Origin: a virus
DNA length: 26,565 nucleotides
Virus record (IMG/VR): IMGVR_UViG_3300024265_000185
Location: 1 to 26,565 of that record
Strand: one strand, 5' to 3'
A program made the position numbers and the translations under genes. The notes under the pieces are model-generated. The model searched no databases. It was not told the origin of the DNA and saw nothing but the letters and a program-made list of their open reading frames with translations. This document shows positions 2,571 through 20,183 of the stretch, piece after piece (position 1 is the first letter of the stretch; each line of letters opens with the position of its first letter).

Positions 2571-5429
2571 ATGAATATCGCAATACATTGTGGTGGAATG
2601 CCTTTTGATGGAATGTCTATATCAGAAGGTAAAGGATTAGGGGGATCTGAATCTGCCGGTTATTACATGGCGAAAGAACTTGCAGCTTTAGGTCATACGG
2701 TTGTTATGTTTACTGAGTCACAGAGAACAGGCGTTTGGGATGGTGTACGGTATGAATGGGTAGGTGAGCATACCAAGGAAACACCGTTAGGAAGACGCTT
2801 TCATTTTGGTACACAGGCTCCGAATGATGTCATGATAATTCAACGACATCCACAGGCTTTTAGCTATGAGTATAATGCAAAATTAAAGCTTTGGTGGCTG
2901 CATGACCTCGCATTGTATCGTAATGCCGGACTTGTACAGGCACATTTACATTCGATAGATCAGATGTTGACTGTATCGGAGTTTCACAGGAATCAGGTTT
3001 CTGAAGTGTACGATATTAACAAAGATTTTATAACACCTACATGGAACGGTGTGGATTATTCTATGTTTGAAGGTCTCGAAAATCTGGAACGTGAAAAGAA
3101 CAGTCTGGTATTTGCAGCAAGACCGGAACGAGGGCTTGAACCGCTTGTCGGTAAAGACGGTATCATGGAGAAACTCCCTGAATGTCATCTGTACGTTTGC
3201 GGTTATGAGAATACTACATCTCAAATGGCTTCGTTTTACAAGTACCTTTTTCAACGTTGTAAAGAACTTCCTAATGTCACTAACTTAGGGGCGTTGGGAA
3301 AGGAACAGTTATATAAGTTATTAGCTCAATCCATGTTGTACGTTTATCCGACAACGTTTGAGGACACAAGCTGTATCATGGTCTTGGAAGCAAATGCTGC
3401 CGGTACTCCGTTCTTAGCTTTTAAGACAGCAGCTTTACCGGAAACATGCAAGGGTAGTGGATCAAAGTTACTACCATTGAAAAAGGGAAAGGAGGATAAA
3501 AATAAATTTGCTCATACTGTAAAGTGTCTTCTTAATGATTCTGCGAAGTGGGAGAACCTTCATGAGAAAGCTAAGAATAAAAAACAGTCATGGGCGAGTG
3601 CTGCCAAACAATGGGATTCTCTTTTTAAGGATCTACTGAAAAAGAAATGTGATAACAAGATACGGTTACACCGGCATTTTGAGCGTTACAGTGACATAGT
3701 TCCGGCTGTGTGGGATGAAGCGACAGACGAAACTATCCCGGAGCTAAGCAGAAAGTACAAATTTTATTTTGAAAATAACTACAAAGAACATTTGGAGCGG
3801 TATTACAAGTACGAGAAAGATCGTGGAGTTATTTACGGCCCTGAATCAATGGTCGGTAATTCACGTTTTGAATGTGTCTCTGAAAAAATAGGTGAAATAA
3901 ATCCAAAGTCTTTGCTTGATTACGGCTGTGCTCATGGACATTTCGTAATGAACCTGATGAAGCGATATCCTGATATCAGATATTTTGGAGTTGATATAAA
4001 CAGGTCTAACATTGAAGCGGCTAAGAAATGGGCTATGGATGATGGTGCGACTCAGGAAGTCGCGGATAATCTATTTCTTGAAAGTTCCATTGAAGAAGGT
4101 TTTGAGTTAGCCAGTAAAGTTGACTTGTTACTCGCTTCGGAGATCCTCGAACACGTACCTGATCCAGTCAAGCTAATGACGGATTTAAAAAAGTATCTAA
4201 ATCCTGATGGTTACGTGATTATAACTGTTCCGTATGGAGCTTGGGAAGCTGTCGGATATCATGAACATCCCGAATGGCGATCTCATTTACATCACTTTGA
4301 ACGGCGAGATTTGTATGAGATATTCGGTTCACAGGATGAGTATAAACTGTTAGCCGTTCCTAATCGTGGTGAGTACGGTCATTTTGTATTGACGTTTAAA
4401 AACAGTAACACAAAATTTGGCTGTATTGATTACAATCGAAAGATAGTTGAACAGAATCCAAAAGAAACGCTGTCTGTCTGTCTGATTGCTAAAGATGCTG
4501 AGTACACAATTGGTAAGACTCTACAATCAATTGAACTGATAGCGGATGAAATTATCGTTGCTATTGATGAAACTACCACAGACGAAACGGAAAGAATTTG
4601 TAAAAAGTTCGGGGCAACTATTTTAAAAATCCCATCACCAATTAAGATCGGGTTTGATAAGGCAAGGAATCTAAGTATCGAGAACGCTATTATGGATTGG
4701 ATATTCTGGATCGATTGTGATGAAACACTCGAACATCCATTGCGGATGAATAAGTACCTGCGTCAGAACTGTTATGATGGTTACGGTATCAAACAACATC
4801 ACTTTGCTGCTGAACCGGCAGCTTTATTTAAAACAGACTATCCTGTCAGGCTGTTCCGTAATAATGGGAATCAGGAATTCTTCGGTGTCGTTCATGAACA
4901 CCCGGAAAAAGGTTACGATGAGGGGCCGGGGAAGATTACGATCATTCCTGATATAGCGATAATGCACATGGGCTACAGTACGGAAGAAGTCAGACGAAAA
5001 CGGTTTGATCGAAATTGGCCGCTAATGAGAAGGGAATGGAAAGCACATCCTGAGAGAAAATTAACTAAGTTCCTATGGGTCAGGGATCTGGCACACTATA
5101 TTAAATACAATCTTGAGGAAAACGGCGGTATTATAACCAATAAAATGATAGAGTGTGCTGATGAAATGATAATTGTTTGGAGAGACTTGCTTAAAATGGG
5201 CGAGACTCGTTTACTCATTGAGACAATTCCTTTCTATTCAGAAGCGGTTAATATCAAGGGTAATGGTATTGAGTACGTTTTTAATTTGGAAGCAACGAAG
5301 TTTATAGAAGGGATCAAGCTTGACGATGATCCCATAATCGGTAGGTTTGCTTCTAAGGAAGACGTGGAAAATTTAACAAAACATTTGGTTGATCAGAAAC
5401 TAAAATATTTTGATGATAGGTACTTTTAA
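2571..5429 (+). CDS. Trifunctional glycosyltransferase (GT4) - SAM methyltransferase - glycosyltransferase (GT2) fusion
   Basis: A 952-residue enzyme with three visible domains. Residues 1 to about 360 look like a GT4/GT-B glycosyltransferase: GGSESAGYY near the N-terminus, LWWLHDLAL, and a C-terminal PTTFEDTSCIMVLEANAAG block that matches the family's acidic-x7-Glu nucleotide-sugar site, with Asp in place of the first Glu. Residues about 420-610 form a class I SAM-dependent methyltransferase: LLDYGCAHGH (448-457) as motif I, the acidic residue of FGVDIN ending beta-2, and ASEILEHVPDP as motif IV. Residues about 632-860 form a GT2/GT-A glycosyltransferase: LSVCLIAKDAEYTIGKTL at its start and a metal-binding DCDE at 715-718. 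It lies between capsid and connector genes, starts after AGGAGG, and overlaps the next gene (TAATG). The role is probably building and methylating a glycan on the virion or on a host component; substrates are unknown. Confidence 0.88.
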   Translation: MNIAIHCGGMPFDGMSISEGKGLGGSESAGYYMAKELAALGHTVVMFTESQRTGVWDGVRYEWVGEHTKETPLGRRFHFGTQAPNDVMIIQRHPQAFSYEYNAKLKLWWLHDLALYRNAGLVQAHLHSIDQMLTVSEFHRNQVSEVYDINKDFITPTWNGVDYSMFEGLENLEREKNSLVFAARPERGLEPLVGKDGIMEKLPECHLYVCGYENTTSQMASFYKYLFQRCKELPNVTNLGALGKEQLYKLLAQSMLYVYPTTFEDTSCIMVLEANAAGTPFLAFKTAALPETCKGSGSKLLPLKKGKEDKNKFAHTVKCLLNDSAKWENLHEKAKNKKQSWASAAKQWDSLFKDLLKKKCDNKIRLHRHFERYSDIVPAVWDEATDETIPELSRKYKFYFENNYKEHLERYYKYEKDRGVIYGPESMVGNSRFECVSEKIGEINPKSLLDYGCAHGHFVMNLMKRYPDIRYFGVDINRSNIEAAKKWAMDDGATQEVADNLFLESSIEEGFELASKVDLLLASEILEHVPDPVKLMTDLKKYLNPDGYVIITVPYGAWEAVGYHEHPEWRSHLHHFERRDLYEIFGSQDEYKLLAVPNRGEYGHFVLTFKNSNTKFGCIDYNRKIVEQNPKETLSVCLIAKDAEYTIGKTLQSIELIADEIIVAIDETTTDETERICKKFGATILKIPSPIKIGFDKARNLSIENAIMDWIFWIDCDETLEHPLRMNKYLRQNCYDGYGIKQHHFAAEPAALFKTDYPVRLFRNNGNQEFFGVVHEHPEKGYDEGPGKITIIPDIAIMHMGYSTEEVRRKRFDRNWPLMRREWKAHPERKLTKFLWVRDLAHYIKYNLEENGGIITNKMIECADEMIIVWRDLLKMGETRLLIETIPFYSEAVNIKGNGIEYVFNLEATKFIEGIKLDDDPIIGRFASKEDVENLTKHLVDQKLKYFDDRYF

Positions 5430-6862: not shown

Positions 6863-7023
6863 AGATAAAATGGATTGATGATCAAAGAGAGGTGCCGGGA
6901 ATCGGTATTCTTAATACGGATGATATTGTAAATTTACCGGCTGATATGGCAAAGAATTTCATAAAACAGGGGCAAGCTGAATCTGTTGGAAAAAAAAACA
7001 AAAAAACCAAAGATGAAATATAA
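6859..7023 (+). CDS. Small phage protein (54 aa), connector-associated
   Basis: A 54-residue ORF beginning MKIKWIDDQREVPGIGIL, with the segment TDDIVNLPADMAKNFIKQG and a lysine-rich tail. The pattern (protein ends in a small beta unit, then 'not below membrane, Ile-Lys-Gln-Gly' helix) recurs in short proteins found near phage head-tail genes. Its ATG overlaps the previous stop (ATGA) and GAGGAG lies upstream, and its end overlaps the sulfotransferase start, so it sits in a coupled chain. I do not know its function. Confidence 0.65.
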   Translation: MKIKWIDDQREVPGIGILNTDDIVNLPADMAKNFIKQGQAESVGKKNKKTKDEI

Positions 7024-7588
7024 GTTTCGACATTTTGCAATAATAGGATGTGGACTTTCAGGGAGTTCATTACTACAGAGTATTTTAAATAAACATTCTG
7101 AAGTTATTGTTATGTTTGAGCAGTATTCGAAGTCACCTGATTATTTCACACTTTGGATTGAAGAAAAGTATGAGCATGAGAAAAGGGGTGTTACATTCGG
7201 AATTAAGAATCCGGTAGAAGTTTTAATCAACAATAACTGGCCGGAGGAAAAGATATTAGAGATCAGCGATTACTTTTTTGTAATCTGGAATCTGAGAAAA
7301 TTTAGTGGATATCTGGACTCAGCTAAAAGGCGATCAACTTTTATACATCCAAAAGCGAAAGAATTTTGGGATAAATCAAATGAACTGTACTGGAAGGTCA
7401 GGGAAAGGCACCCGGATAAATTATTGTCTCTTAATTTTGAAGAATTAGTCACATATCCAAAAAGAGAAATAATTCGAATGTGTGACTTTTTAAATATAGA
7501 GTTTGAGCCGGAAATGTTAGACGTTAAACATAACGATAAACTTAGATATTCCAACGGAAAGATACTTGCGGAAAAGGCATTTATATAA
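7013..7588 (+). CDS. PAPS-dependent sulfotransferase-like protein
   Basis: A 191-residue protein with the main landmarks of the sulfotransferase family, which transfers sulfate from PAPS to sugars, lipids or small molecules. Residues 12-25 (GCGLSGSSLLQSIL) match the 5'-phosphosulfate-binding loop. Arg95 and Ser103 (LRKFSGYLDS, R-x7-S) match the 3'-phosphate-binding pair. Residues 140-169 (LNFEELVTYPKREI, then CDFLNIEFEPEML) match the family's C-terminal 'yEdLv-P...L..FLgi' block. It is shorter than usual (250-300), with a compact middle. I chose ATG at 7013, which overlaps the upstream stop; a TTG at 6986 would add nine lysine-rich residues. Its place between tail terminator and tail tube genes is unusual and suggests late expression. 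Confidence 0.75.
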   Translation: MKYKFRHFAIIGCGLSGSSLLQSILNKHSEVIVMFEQYSKSPDYFTLWIEEKYEHEKRGVTFGIKNPVEVLINNNWPEEKILEISDYFFVIWNLRKFSGYLDSAKRRSTFIHPKAKEFWDKSNELYWKVRERHPDKLLSLNFEELVTYPKREIIRMCDFLNIEFEPEMLDVKHNDKLRYSNGKILAEKAFI

Positions 7589-9017: not shown

Positions 9018-9256
9018 TTAACGCAAACTTTGCGGGTAGTCCTTTTTCGGTATGGTTAAAACTTTTTCATATGTGTCACGAATGGACGTATGACGGTGGA
9101 CAAGCAGTATCAAAGAGTAAAAGAACTTTTCGAACTGGTTACTATAAACGTTTATACTTACCGTCATCAGGTGATTTAAAGGATCAGTTTATTATTGTAA
9201 TGGATATTTTAAATATTATTCGTATCGAGGAAAATGAGATAGCAACAAATGTCTGA
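8583..9256 (+). CDS. Tail assembly chaperone, -1 frameshift fusion (gpGT-like)
   Basis: Ribosomes that slip by -1 at A AAA AAC (8972-8978) would continue in the frame starting CTC at 8978 and read open to the TGA at 9254-9256. This gives 132 residues of the short form plus 92 new ones, 224 in all. The added part contains FAGSPFSVWLKLFHM, WTYDGGQAV and YYKRLYLPSSGDL, a compact domain like lambda gpT. The extension has no ribosome binding site of its own before its first ATG (9071), and the tape measure starts inside its end (9249). Size, order and slippery site all match the conserved gpG/gpGT system. Confidence 0.85.
8972..8978 (+). promoter_or_regulatory. Programmed -1 ribosomal frameshift site, A AAA AAC
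   Basis: The bases AAAAAAC are phased so that the zero-frame codons are AAA (8973-8975) and AAC (8976-8978), the canonical X XXY YYZ arrangement. It lies 13 codons before the zero-frame stop. I see no convincing strong stem-loop just downstream; a weak GTCC/GGAC pairing (8990-8993 with 9008-9011) exists. Confidence 0.85.
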
Positions 9257-14394: not shown

Positions 14395-17300
14395 ATGGCT
14401 GGTGGAAATCCTTTTAATGTACCTGGCCCTCCGGCAATATTAGGGTCTAATGACAATGATAATAGTTTTCTCAGTGACGATGTTGTCGCGAATCGTGACG
14501 GATCGATCATTGAACGTCAGGAATGGATCATCAATGCTCTCGGTGGAGCACAGGCGAGATTTGAACAGAGTATATCGGCTACCGTTGAGGAAGATGTATA
14601 TTTACAGTTCACCATAACTTTGTTTGATCTTGATGCCGGTGCTGTGGCTTCTGCGAGTATTGATATAACGAGTATCAGTAACGTGATGTCAAAGGGGACT
14701 GCTGCCGGTGCTGCCTTTAGTGCTGCCGGTATTACACAACCAACCTTTGCGAAGTCAAACGGTCTTGTGACATGCTCCTATCGTTTCCTTGCTGCTGAAT
14801 GGGCGGTGGGTGACGTATATCGTCTGGTAGTTGGTGGTATTACTGCTGTCGTGGACGGTGAAACGGTTTATGTACCTGATATGGTATGGTCAAATCTCAT
14901 TGTCGAAGCTGCTGATATGACGGCTGAGATGGCGAAGATACCAAAGTCCGATAGTACCATTACATGGAATGACGTAGCTTTACAATCGATTCAGGATGAA
15001 TGTGAGGACGCTCTTGAAGGAGAAAATCTGGATCATCTTGCAAAGGTCGCTGTAGACACGAATCTTGCCACTACCGTACACGATGATAGTATCTTGGGAA
15101 ATTTGTTTGCAAAAGCAAACGTTACTAATTTTAACAGAACTACCGATTCAATGGAAATGTTATCGGATAAGTTAGGTGCGTATTCCGGTGACGGTGGAGC
15201 TGATTATAACGATTCAGTTAAAGCAGCGATAGAACTTCTTAGTAAATTCATTGCTTCCGGTGACGGTGACATGGCTGGTGGTACTCAACTGGCTTCCAAT
15301 AAATCTATTCCCGATGCTCTTGGTGTTACCGGAAGTGCAGCTATCAGTGAAGAGTTCAGTATGCAATCACTCTTTCAATTTCTGTATGGAAAACATGACA
15401 CCGTACATATTCTCTTTATACTTCCTGAAGCTGTCGGAAGTATCAATGCGGATAATACGGTCTTACAAACTGAGTTAGGTAAGTTGGGTGAAGTTATGAC
15501 AATCACACAAGCTGACTTACTTGCTCATGCCGAATTATCAAGCTATACTCTGGTTGTCTTGGGTACGAATAGCGGTACAGCTTGGACAACGGCTAACCTT
15601 GCAGACCTGAAACTCACACCTGATTTACCGATTCTCTGTGTTGATAAGGTGGCTTCCGCTTATCTTGAAATGGGTACTGACGGAGGGGATGCTGCTACAA
15701 AAACTGATATCAATGCCGTATCAACGATTGAGGGTAGTATTTTTGGAATCGGAGCGTGCGGATTAACCGGACTCGCTGCTGGTGCAAATGTAGTTTCAAC
15801 TTCAGCTACTTATCACACCTTAGATATGTCTGATGTAGATATTACCGAAACGTGGTGGGCTTATGAAACTGCTAATGCTAATACGGATGTTGTTTTAGGT
15901 GGTATTTTCAAACAGCAAAATGACGGTGAACTCGGTATTGATGAAGAAGGTGATCCGGTTCCGGGTAGTTTGATATTTGCCGGGTTCTGTTACGATGCGT
16001 CTGAACTGACAACATTAGGAAAGAGTACTTTTAAGCTGGCTGCTCTTATTCTGATTCATGAACGTACTGTAAGTTCATCAATTGCAATCATTGGAGCGAT
16101 CAGGGATTTTGAAAAAGAAGTTATCGGTAATCAAAAAAGCTTGTTATCAAATCCACTCCCTTTAGCTGATTTTATAACTGGTTCAAATTCTGGTTTAGGA
16201 GAGCCTTTACCAACAGATATTTCTCTATATGATGCAGTTCGAACTTTAGAGGGTTTATGTTTTGCCGGAATTATAACGACAGCGACAAGTGCTACGGAAT
16301 TTAAGGTTGCGAAGTTAGCTAATAAGGGAACAAATGTTTTTAATGATAAATTTTACATTCAGATAGTCGAAGCTGATAGCGCTGCACCTGAAGGGGAAGT
16401 TAAAAAAGTATCAGCTTATACGACAGGTGACGGTACTTTCACAACGGCTGCTTTCTCGGTAGCTCCTGATGTTGGTGATCAGATAATTTTATATCCTGAA
16501 AGTATTTTTGCTATTGGACAGATAGCTGATGCTGCTCTTGCAATGAACACAGCTTCGAATGGAGCTCAAACAATCGTAACACTTCTTCGGAGTATCTTAG
16601 AACGATTAGGTGAAACACCGGCTGATTCAGATGATAGTGCTCATACTATTCTTGGTCAACGTGATCTCACTGTTCCAGCAATGAACGCAGCAATGTCAAC
16701 TTCAAATTCAATTATTGAGATAGTTAGTGCTATTAAGGAACGTTTAGGTGCAACTCCGGCAGACACTGATGATCCACTTCATTTGATTCATGGTCAAAGA
16801 GATGATGCAGCTCCGGGTATGAACGTTGCTCCGGCTAACTCGGATAGTATTATAATGCATTTGAAAGCTATCCGTGAAACAGTTGGACAGGAGCCTGCCG
16901 ATGCCGATGACTCTCTTCATACTACAGTTGGTCAAAGGGATGCTACGGCTACGTCAGATGATCTTTCTGATATTGCTTCTACAGGTTTGAATGCAAAGGT
17001 TAGAAGGGCGTTGTTAAGATTTTCAGCCGGTGCGTTCAGCACAACAATTGATCCCGGTGGTTCTGCCCGAACTTGTCTCGAAGATCTTTGGACAGATTTA
17101 GGAGCTATGATTGCCGGTGCTGATGGTATTACCACATGGCCGGCTGCTGCTGATATCGGAGATGGTAAATCCCTTGCTGAAGGAATCAGGGCTATCCTTA
17201 CCTCGCTCGTTGGTGGAGATAATTTTGATGGATATACAAATATCAATAATACAGCGAATGTGTCTATCAATGCAGCTTTACAGAATATAGCTACTATTTT

Positions 17301-18018: not shown

Positions 18019-19794
18019 ATGGCAGTACATATACATGGACGAGAAATTATAAGAGAAACGACTAATACCGAAACTCTATCTGGCACAAAAACACTTGTGA
18101 TTTCAGACGCTCAGATTCAATATTTAAATCCAGATGGTGCTGATAGAGATGTTGTCGCTTCTGCTGAAGCGGTTTCTGACGGATTGGAATTTAGTATATT
18201 CAACACAGGCGAAGAGCTTCTAACATTTAAAAATGATGGCGGGGATACTATTGACTATATTAATCCATATAGTTCAAGGATATTTAAATGTGATGGCACT
18301 GATTGGAATTCTTTAAAAGACATTGCTGATCTTATTAATGCAGTTGCTTATGGAGTTTCATGGGATGAGGATGATTCGAGCCCAACATTGACAAGAACAG
18401 GAGCCCTGATTGGCGTTGCGGCAGGGATAACGCCCGGAAACGTGCTTTTACCCATTCAGGCGGTTATGCGGCGGTGTGTGATGGCTGATGACGGAACTAT
18501 AGAATACTATCTATCCGCCACAGACAGTACAAAGAAAGAAGATGGTACAACTGCTTCCGATTTAGTTGGCGGTGATGGACAGGTGATGGTTGAGATACCT
18601 AAGTTCTATTACAAGTATTCTTACATCGCTGCTACTAATGTTCATAATTGGAGCATTGCAAGTGTCATGCTTCCGGGTTATAAACTTCATCCGGCTTTTA
18701 TGAAAAACGGTGCGGAAGTAGATTTTCGATACATGGGTGCTTATGAAGGTGTGCTTTATGATGACTCTGAAAGCAAATATGTTAATGGACTTTATATGCC
18801 TTCAGATGCTACATATACATTTTCATTTCTTGATAATGGTGGGGGAGATGATACTATTACGGCAGATGCTAATACTAATGCTTTCACTAACCTGGTAGCA
18901 ACGGTAGATAAAATTGTAGTGTCTGGAAGTACCGTAAATGATGGGACTTATGATATTAAAAGTGTGACGGATACCGTAATTACTTTAAATACTGGGTCGT
19001 TAGCTGGAACACAGGCGAATGATCAGTGTGTAATTCAAGTGCAGCGAGATTGGACAGCTACCACTGGAGATGTTCTTGGAAGTGTTTCTGGATTCGCTCC
19101 GATGAATTATGGAACGAGAGATAACTTCCGAGATGTAGCAGCTACCAGAGGAACTGGTTGGAGATGTAATGATTACGATTTGGTTTCAGCTATTCAACTT
19201 TTATATCTTGTGGAATATGCAAGTTTCTACTCCCAAAGCGTAATTGGAGCCGGTCTAACAGATTGGGCGGCTGGCTGGCCTGTTTGGAATAATTCTAATC
19301 CGATTGAAAAAACAGGAAATAGTAATTCAGACGGAAATGCCACGGCAAATACGTCTGGTGGTGATGCTACCGCTGGTTCATATATGAGTTATCGGGGAAT
19401 TGAAAACTTCTTTGGACATATTTGGAAGTGGGTAGACGGTTTTAATATAAACGGGAATATTCCGTATGTACATAATACAGATACGGAATTTGCAGATGAT
19501 ACAACTGCCAATTACACACGTTTGGAAGATGTCAATGGAGATGGAATCACTCTACATAACGGTGACGGGTATCAAGTAACGTTGGAACAAATTGATAGAG
19601 GATTTTTACCAGCATCGGTTGGAGGATCAAGTTCGACATATATTACTGATTATTATTATCAGGCGGCGGGGTGGCGTGTGGCGGAGCTGGGCGGGGTTGC
19701 GAGTCATGGCGCATTTGCGGGGGTCGCTTGTTGGTATCTTAGTATTGCGGCTGCCTCTTTGGATCGGATTATCGGTTCTCGCTTGTCTTTTTGA
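18019..19794 (+). CDS. Receptor-binding fibre with C-type-lectin-like end; likely DGR target
   Basis: A 591-residue protein. Residues 1 to about 110 resemble an attachment or beta domain. Residues about 112-260 form a conserved fibre domain (GVSWDEDDSSPTLTRTG, MVEIPKFYYKYSY, GYKLHPAFMKNGAEV) often seen in DGR-target fibres. Residues about 260-340 look like an inserted beta domain (SFLDNGGGDDTITADAN). From about residue 455 (SYRGIENFFGHIWKWVDGFN) to the end the pattern fits the C-type-lectin/formylglycine-enzyme fold used by Mtd-like proteins. It ends with WRVAELGG and IIGSRLSF, the typical frame of a variable region, with adenine-poor codons between (see separate entry). It probably binds the host receptor at the fibre tip. 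No reverse transcriptase or template repeat was found in the window. Confidence 0.8.
   Translation: MAVHIHGREIIRETTNTETLSGTKTLVISDAQIQYLNPDGADRDVVASAEAVSDGLEFSIFNTGEELLTFKNDGGDTIDYINPYSSRIFKCDGTDWNSLKDIADLINAVAYGVSWDEDDSSPTLTRTGALIGVAAGITPGNVLLPIQAVMRRCVMADDGTIEYYLSATDSTKKEDGTTASDLVGGDGQVMVEIPKFYYKYSYIAATNVHNWSIASVMLPGYKLHPAFMKNGAEVDFRYMGAYEGVLYDDSESKYVNGLYMPSDATYTFSFLDNGGGDDTITADANTNAFTNLVATVDKIVVSGSTVNDGTYDIKSVTDTVITLNTGSLAGTQANDQCVIQVQRDWTATTGDVLGSVSGFAPMNYGTRDNFRDVAATRGTGWRCNDYDLVSAIQLLYLVEYASFYSQSVIGAGLTDWAAGWPVWNNSNPIEKTGNSNSDGNATANTSGGDATAGSYMSYRGIENFFGHIWKWVDGFNINGNIPYVHNTDTEFADDTTANYTRLEDVNGDGITLHNGDGYQVTLEQIDRGFLPASVGGSSSTYITDYYYQAAGWRVAELGGVASHGAFAGVACWYLSIAAASLDRIIGSRLSF
19663..19791 (+). 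other. Candidate DGR variable region (VR)
   Basis: These 43 codons encode the C-terminal end of the lectin-like domain. Only 10 of 129 bases are adenine (about 8%), far below the surrounding sequence. Ten codons end in T with varied first two bases (GTT, AGT, CAT, TTT, TGT, TAT, AGT, ATT, GAT, ATT), as if derived from AAT codons of a template repeat. They alternate with A-poor fixed codons such as GCG, GGC and GGG. This matches mutagenic A-to-N retrohoming by a DGR. The exact start of the repeat is not set without the template. Confidence 0.7.
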
Positions 19795-19796
19795 TT

Positions 19797-19813
19797 GTAA
19801 TAATAAATATTAC
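19797..19813 (+). other. Hairpin just downstream of the candidate VR
   Basis: GTAATA and TATTAC form a 6-bp inverted repeat around the 5-base loop ATAAA, two bases past the stop codon of the fibre gene, followed by ACTTTTA. In the Bordetella phage DGR a hairpin or cruciform just after the variable region helps target recognition; this could be its equivalent, or a weak terminator. Confidence 0.4.
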
Positions 19814-19835
19814 ACTTTTAGTTAGGAGAAATTAA

Positions 19836-20183
19836 ATGAAAGTACAATCAAAAACATATCCTGAGATTACAAGGTCAAAAAAAGAAAGAATTGTTAGGGT
19901 TCCTCATAATATTGATGAGATCATCGTAGATGAAGAAACTATATACCAGTATGGCGAACAAATATATCCTGATGATGGACATGATATTGCTGACACAGAT
20001 TATTGGAATGCGAGAGCAGCAGAAAGCGATAGTTTGTTAGAATCGGCCAAAGACCTAGTGATTAGTTTAACTTATGATCAAATTGACAATCATATTGATA
20101 CGGTTTTTAGTAGCCTTGCTGTTGATCAGAAAGCTTCGTTGAAAAAGCTATACAAGGCTGTATTGTATTTGCTAAAAAGATAA
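19836..20183 (+). CDS. Fibre-adjacent protein, unknown (115 aa)
   Basis: A 115-residue protein with a basic, strand-rich N-terminal part (residues about 1-50, including RIVRVPHNIDEIIVDEETIYQYG) and a helical C-terminal part (ARAAESDSLLESAKDLVISLTYDQ and later SLKKLYKAVLYLLKR). AGGAGAAATTAAATG gives a clear start. I do not recognise a family. Its position right after the fibre gene is typical of fibre-assembly chaperones or tail accessory proteins. It does not resemble a reverse transcriptase, and its mixed layout does not match the all-helical DGR accessory protein Avd closely. No conserved catalytic residues are visible. Confidence 0.6.
   Translation: MKVQSKTYPEITRSKKERIVRVPHNIDEIIVDEETIYQYGEQIYPDDGHDIADTDYWNARAAESDSLLESAKDLVISLTYDQIDNHIDTVFSSLAVDQKASLKKLYKAVLYLLKR

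Follow-up and report, generated by a model that had tools for sequence, protein, structure and literature searches.

The fibre gene that closes the tail module of the viral DNA analysed here (the window, a 26,565-base fragment of a viral record, with most of the viral genome and the host lying outside it) is probably a former target of a diversity-generating retroelement (DGR), whose cassette of template repeat (TR) and reverse transcriptase (RT) was either recently lost or left behind when the tip of the fibre was exchanged. The target had been spotted by base composition alone in a sequence-only reading, and homologues confirm it. The claim that the 3' end of the gene was diversified by A-mutagenesis is upheld by cassettes lying in cis in relatives, by the adenine signature, by the fold and by clustered variation, whereas the accompanying proposal that the rest of the system lies elsewhere or acts in trans is not supported: the cassette of this family adjoins the fibre gene, the junction in the window is cassette-less, several relatives are scarred, and the searches described below found no cognate TR.

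The fibre matches the phrog_5302 "tail protein" family (E 1.5e-86), and relatives are 50-75% identical to it across residues ~107-591. Upstream, the tail module contains a tape measure gene at 9249, minor tail proteins and a 1202-aa ORF at 14395 that gave no match in the family search. The length of 591 residues given by the sequence-only reading is correct, but the end that it set at 19813 overshoots the ORF by 19 bases, the stop codon being located at 19792-19794 (Table 1). Elsewhere in the window, a 952-aa ORF inside the head/connector module (2571-5429) joins glycosyltransferase, methyltransferase and glycosyltransferase-2 domains in a single frame, a 200-aa ORF in the connector/tail region (6986-7588) matches the sulfotransferase family, and an 18-bp tandem repeat (2238-2411) within the 123-aa ORF at 2177 encodes acidic KEDEDI-type repeats.

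Table 1. Features of the fibre gene and its 3' junction in the window
Feature	Position	Strand	Basis
Gene for the fibre / receptor-binding tail protein (591 aa)	18019..19794	+	ORF, phrog_5302 match, relatives
Well-folded C-terminal part, residues 107-591, DGR variable protein fold (C-type lectin)	18337..19791	+	AlphaFold2 and PDB match
Variable repeat (VR), adenine-poor 3' terminus of fibre gene	19663..19794	+	A count; mismatches against relatives' TRs
Cassette-less junction	19795..19835	+	blastn to leader 265 nt after RT in L165/L167/L168
Inverted repeat TGTAATA-ATAAA-TATTACA	19796..19814	.	Just after stop
115-aa gene	19836..20183	+	phmmer E 1.8e-12 to post-RT gene of L015

The C-type-lectin-like domain noticed at the end of the fibre is borne out by structure prediction. 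An earlier model built from 17 sequences was poor at the C-terminus and was replaced by an AlphaFold2 model of residues 107-591 with 72 relatives in the alignment, which reached a pLDDT of 96.4 and a pTM of 0.94. Compared with the PDB, it is closest to TaqVP (5vf4, E 2.8e-9), a DGR variable protein, and the next five matches are Mtd variants. The VR forms the 3' end of the coding sequence and falls within the C-type-lectin fold; the fibre tip would presumably bind the host receptor.

The composition of the VR is exceptional within the window. The count of 10 adenines in the last 129 coding bases, reported in the sequence-only reading, is exact (A10 C25 G52 T42 at 19663-19791), and lies 4.4 standard deviations below the mean of 129-nt coding windows (z = -4.4; n=7,934, mean 41.1 A, sd 7.0, minimum 20), making the VR the only place of such A depletion on the plus strand. 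The accompanying observation of ten NNT codons captured the pattern and underestimated its extent, as T occupies the third position in 19 of the 44 codons and A does so in 2. An A-poor, Gly/Ala-rich C-terminus with no link to a retroelement would account for this composition insofar as codons for Gly, Ala and Val are naturally A-poor. Such a chance origin is extremely improbable, since all other 129-nt sense windows hold at least 20 A, the mismatches with TRs are A-specific even when base controls are included (see below), homologues possess working cassettes and the fibre has the fold of DGR variable proteins; with cognate TR-VR pairs present in homologues, it was ruled out.

The adenine signature of the VR was measured against the TRs of relatives and not against a cognate TR. 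Relative to the L138 TR, the VR is mismatched at 27/36 template A and at 13/72 non-A positions (Fisher p 1e-8); the corresponding figures are 27/36 and 12/66 for the L006 TR and 24/33 and 15/75 for the L004 TR, with p values across the three comparisons ranging from 1e-8 to 3e-7. The scoring of the TR search treats template-adenine mismatches as neutral and thereby itself favors A; in the corresponding controls, with the neutral role given to C, G or T instead, the best scores were 23, 18 and 19, respectively, vs 39 for A. Together, the A-specific mismatches and the base controls indicate that the VR of the window arose through A-mutagenesis, with a TR belonging to its fibre family as the source.

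Direct evidence that this family is served by DGRs comes from its other members. Scans with the fibre and with its alignment retrieved more than 80 viral relatives and several genomic ones, and the 3' end of each fibre gene was searched for a TR and, with PF00078 and a family-specific profile, for an RT. In about half of these relatives, the same gene is directly followed by a cassette. Both a TR and a DGR-type RT are present in 39 distinct loci, in which the TR starts 25-505 bp after the fibre stop (median 48 bp) and the RT open frame follows the TR (median 253 bp). Across all of them, the mismatches between TR and VR total 928 at template A and 36 at other positions, with at most 3 non-A mismatches per pair. 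The family RT finds its best PDB match in 8ub7 (E 7e-40), a structure of the BPP-1 DGR RT, and RT translations from relatives contain VGNYLSQ or IGAPFSQ, the DGR form of the motif. An element conserved in the TR-RT spacer of L010, L014 and L019, GCCTCTTGGCAAAATA, is possibly part of the RT-bound template RNA. Among the cellular relatives, several gut Bacilli MAGs within L060-L120 (e.g., Lapin-014 bin1) encode many fibre-domain-related proteins per genome, and an RT lies nearby in few of them. In two DGR-bearing loci, L165 and L167, the 450 nt upstream of the VR are 99.8% identical and the 400 nt downstream 100% identical, and the VRs differ at 19/132 bases. Such near-identical flanks around differing VRs show that DGRs have recently been active in this fibre family in nature. 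The clustered variation among relatives that had been put forward as a check is thus seen in this pair, in the pair L123/L124 (see below) and in the divergence of VRs across the family.

In agreement with the sequence-only reading, which noted neither an RT nor a template in the window, neither PF00078 nor the family-specific profile detected an RT there, and the TR search found no TR-like repeat (best score 15; almost all cognate pairs score 83 or more). Beyond the window, scans of viral and genome contigs with IUPAC patterns for a cognate TR gave zero matches and recovered the TR of L006 as a positive control; being exact, these patterns are blind to a TR that has drifted at a fixed site. 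The best foreign TR for the window VR has 12-13 non-A mismatches, vs 0-3 in cognate pairs. Viral contigs searched via the downstream 115-aa gene gave no match, and the cellular genomes L053 and L055, which hold relatives, contain RTs with no nearby TR for those VRs. In the collections searched, a template cognate to the window VR was not found; relatives of the fibre do carry a TR and a DGR-type RT.

Where relatives carry the cassette, the window has a clean junction. The match to the leader that follows the RT in relatives begins at most 5 nt from the fibre stop (blastn E 3.6e-6, 78.6% over 56 columns), and the gene behind it belongs to a family of 48 members, 25 of which follow an RT and 23 of which directly follow a fibre gene with no RT behind it. 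The junction match and the shared next gene together mean that the window has the gene order of its relatives minus TR and RT. The inverted repeat just after the stop (7 bp) is positioned like the hairpin known behind VRs; a hairpin occurs in 5/43 DGR-bearing loci, with ~1.6 expected, and a conserved hairpin behind the VR was rejected on that count. The meaning of the inverted repeat is therefore doubtful.

Since the window itself carries no TR or RT scar, loss of its cassette is inferred from relatives. The same cassette-less state, with neither TR nor RT, is found in 27 loci with at least 3 kb downstream, i.e., in 26 relatives besides the window, and an RT search of 27 virus records, either cassette-less or TR-only and as long as 116 kb, L122 and L127 included, found none. 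Intermediate states also occur: 5' stubs of the TR are joined to the leader of the next gene in L008 and L140, L128 retains a 44-nt TR 5' stub, L145 a decayed TR, and L010 only the TR-RT spacer. L019 (4655-4980) has a perfect TR, with 23 A mismatches and 0 others, followed by an RT start of 8 codons (MIRYNNLY) and a stop, and an RT search of its 71-kb record found none; either its RT was lost very recently or its DGR is non-autonomous. The template stubs and the RT stub show that the cassette was lost repeatedly. When the VR columns are left out of the fibre tree, the DGR label has to change 21 times, and at least 17 changes are forced by well-supported branches. One cassette-less DGR-type fibre (L031:5911-7479) belongs to the complete circular Methanosarcina virus MetMV, which has the same gene order and in whose complete genome neither a TR nor an RT was found. 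This indicates that the MetMV fibre is a DGR target, either former or remote; the paper describing the virus is silent on any retroelement.

The state of the cassette-less VRs bears on whether diversification has ceased. Adenine has been regained to fractions of 0.22-0.31 in L146, L149, L150, L151 and L053, and in the L004 clade differences among VRs are spread evenly over all sites. Most cassette-less VRs, that of the window (0.08) among them, fall within the range of DGR-bearing relatives (0.06-0.19), which suggests either recent loss or continued supply. Continued diversification in trans, by a TR and RT encoded elsewhere by the same virus, by the host, or by a relative that co-infects or is resident, fits the A content of the window VR, as it does the cassette-less neighbours L008, L010, L013 and L017, whose flanks are ~85% identical while their VRs are 43-52% identical, with differences mostly at template-A sites. 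It also accords with the distal targets served by a remaining RT that the DiGReF authors report (PMC3521204) and with the fit of one sister contig's TR to a cassette-less VR (see below). However, a remote cassette was found in none of the cassette-less relatives tested, the best foreign TR is too distant from the window VR to resemble a cognate one, and scanning viral and genome collections with TR patterns gave nothing although the positive control was recovered. A remote or trans source is possible because the window is only a 26.5-kb fragment of its virus and the host lies outside the data; for the window VR such supply is currently unsupported, and we regard it as unlikely.

The sister contigs L123 and L124 come from the same metagenome. 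L124 has a cassette and L123 has none; they are 94-99% identical over the 400 nt before the VR and 75-88% identical farther upstream, and their relatedness ends ~13 bases past the stop. Their VRs differ at 19/40 template-A sites vs 6/89 others (p 2.6e-7), and the L124 TR matches the L123 VR with 25 A mismatches and only 2 others, almost as well as it matches the VR of L124 itself. The pair is consistent with tip exchange, loss, or diversification in trans. Alternatively, the window lineage may never have owned a cassette, its tip and VR having been acquired by recombination from a DGR-bearing phage, as the abrupt changes in identity between L123 and L124 and the scattering of the DGR state over the fibre tree would allow. 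This course has a low probability for the window, given that the same next-gene family occurs at DGR-bearing and cassette-less loci, that stubs in several relatives indicate deletion in place, and that no donor of the window tip is known, its nearest relatives being 73-75% identical. A broader proposal, in which the cassette-less and TR-only viruses of this family are non-autonomous DGR users that keep a mutable tip and depend for its diversification in trans on the RT (and TR) of sister viruses, appears very unlikely; these suppliers could be co-infecting or resident, with L124 as a potential supplier of L123.

Collectively, the preferred reading is that of a former target. Mutagenic retrohoming would once have written the last ~130 bases of the fibre gene: the TR would have been reverse-transcribed with random bases placed at its adenines, and the cDNA would have taken the place of the gene's 3' end, thereby altering exposed residues in the C-type-lectin tip, which presumably attaches to the host surface. 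The cassette would then have disappeared, leaving the fibre stop joined within ~5 bases to the gene normally found behind the RT, most likely through a recent deletion or through import of a fibre tip by recombination without its cassette, and the current VR would have been left as a fixed receptor-binding variant. The loss in the window lineage was presumably recent, and the VR is presumably now static, although a VR as A-poor as those of DGR-bearing relatives also fits continued diversification from elsewhere.

The family series, which runs from intact cassette through TR without RT, TR stubs and clean junction to regained adenine, renders both the loss of targeted hypermutation and trans supply testable. 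Moreover, targets without an RT are invisible to RT-based surveys, which likewise miss remote targets (PMC8144416).

The fibre can be compared with known systems at several levels. TaqVP, from Thermus aquaticus, has the closest fold to the fibre model with only 13% identity, and it was solved as a variable protein with its own cassette, unlike the window fibre. The phrog_5302 tail proteins of crAss-like and other phages belong to the same family over residues 62-591, an entry to which no DGR state is assigned. As in the phage and archaeal virus tail-fibre DGRs of BPP-1 (Mtd) and ANMV-1 (AdtA) (PMC4372165), the window has a C-type-lectin fibre with an A-mutated 3' VR, and its relatives hold a TR and a DGR-type RT directly downstream; in contrast to those systems, the window has neither TR nor RT, and its family has no conserved hairpin behind the VR. 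An A-mutated VR without a local RT has precedents in Nanoarchaeota DUSEL4, where a target and VR without RT were read as fossil or remote (PMC4372165), and in the distal targets of DiGReF, where one RT is reported to be lost while another serves them (PMC3521204); fragmentary cassettes have also been reported from crAss-like phages (PMC12386605). Thus, a DGR target without a local RT has already been described, and the added value here comes from the gradation of cassette states that a single fibre family displays and from the MetMV fibre: in contrast to the partial or fossil DGRs, this family shows intact, TR-only, stub and clean cassette-less states together, across virus contigs and MetMV.
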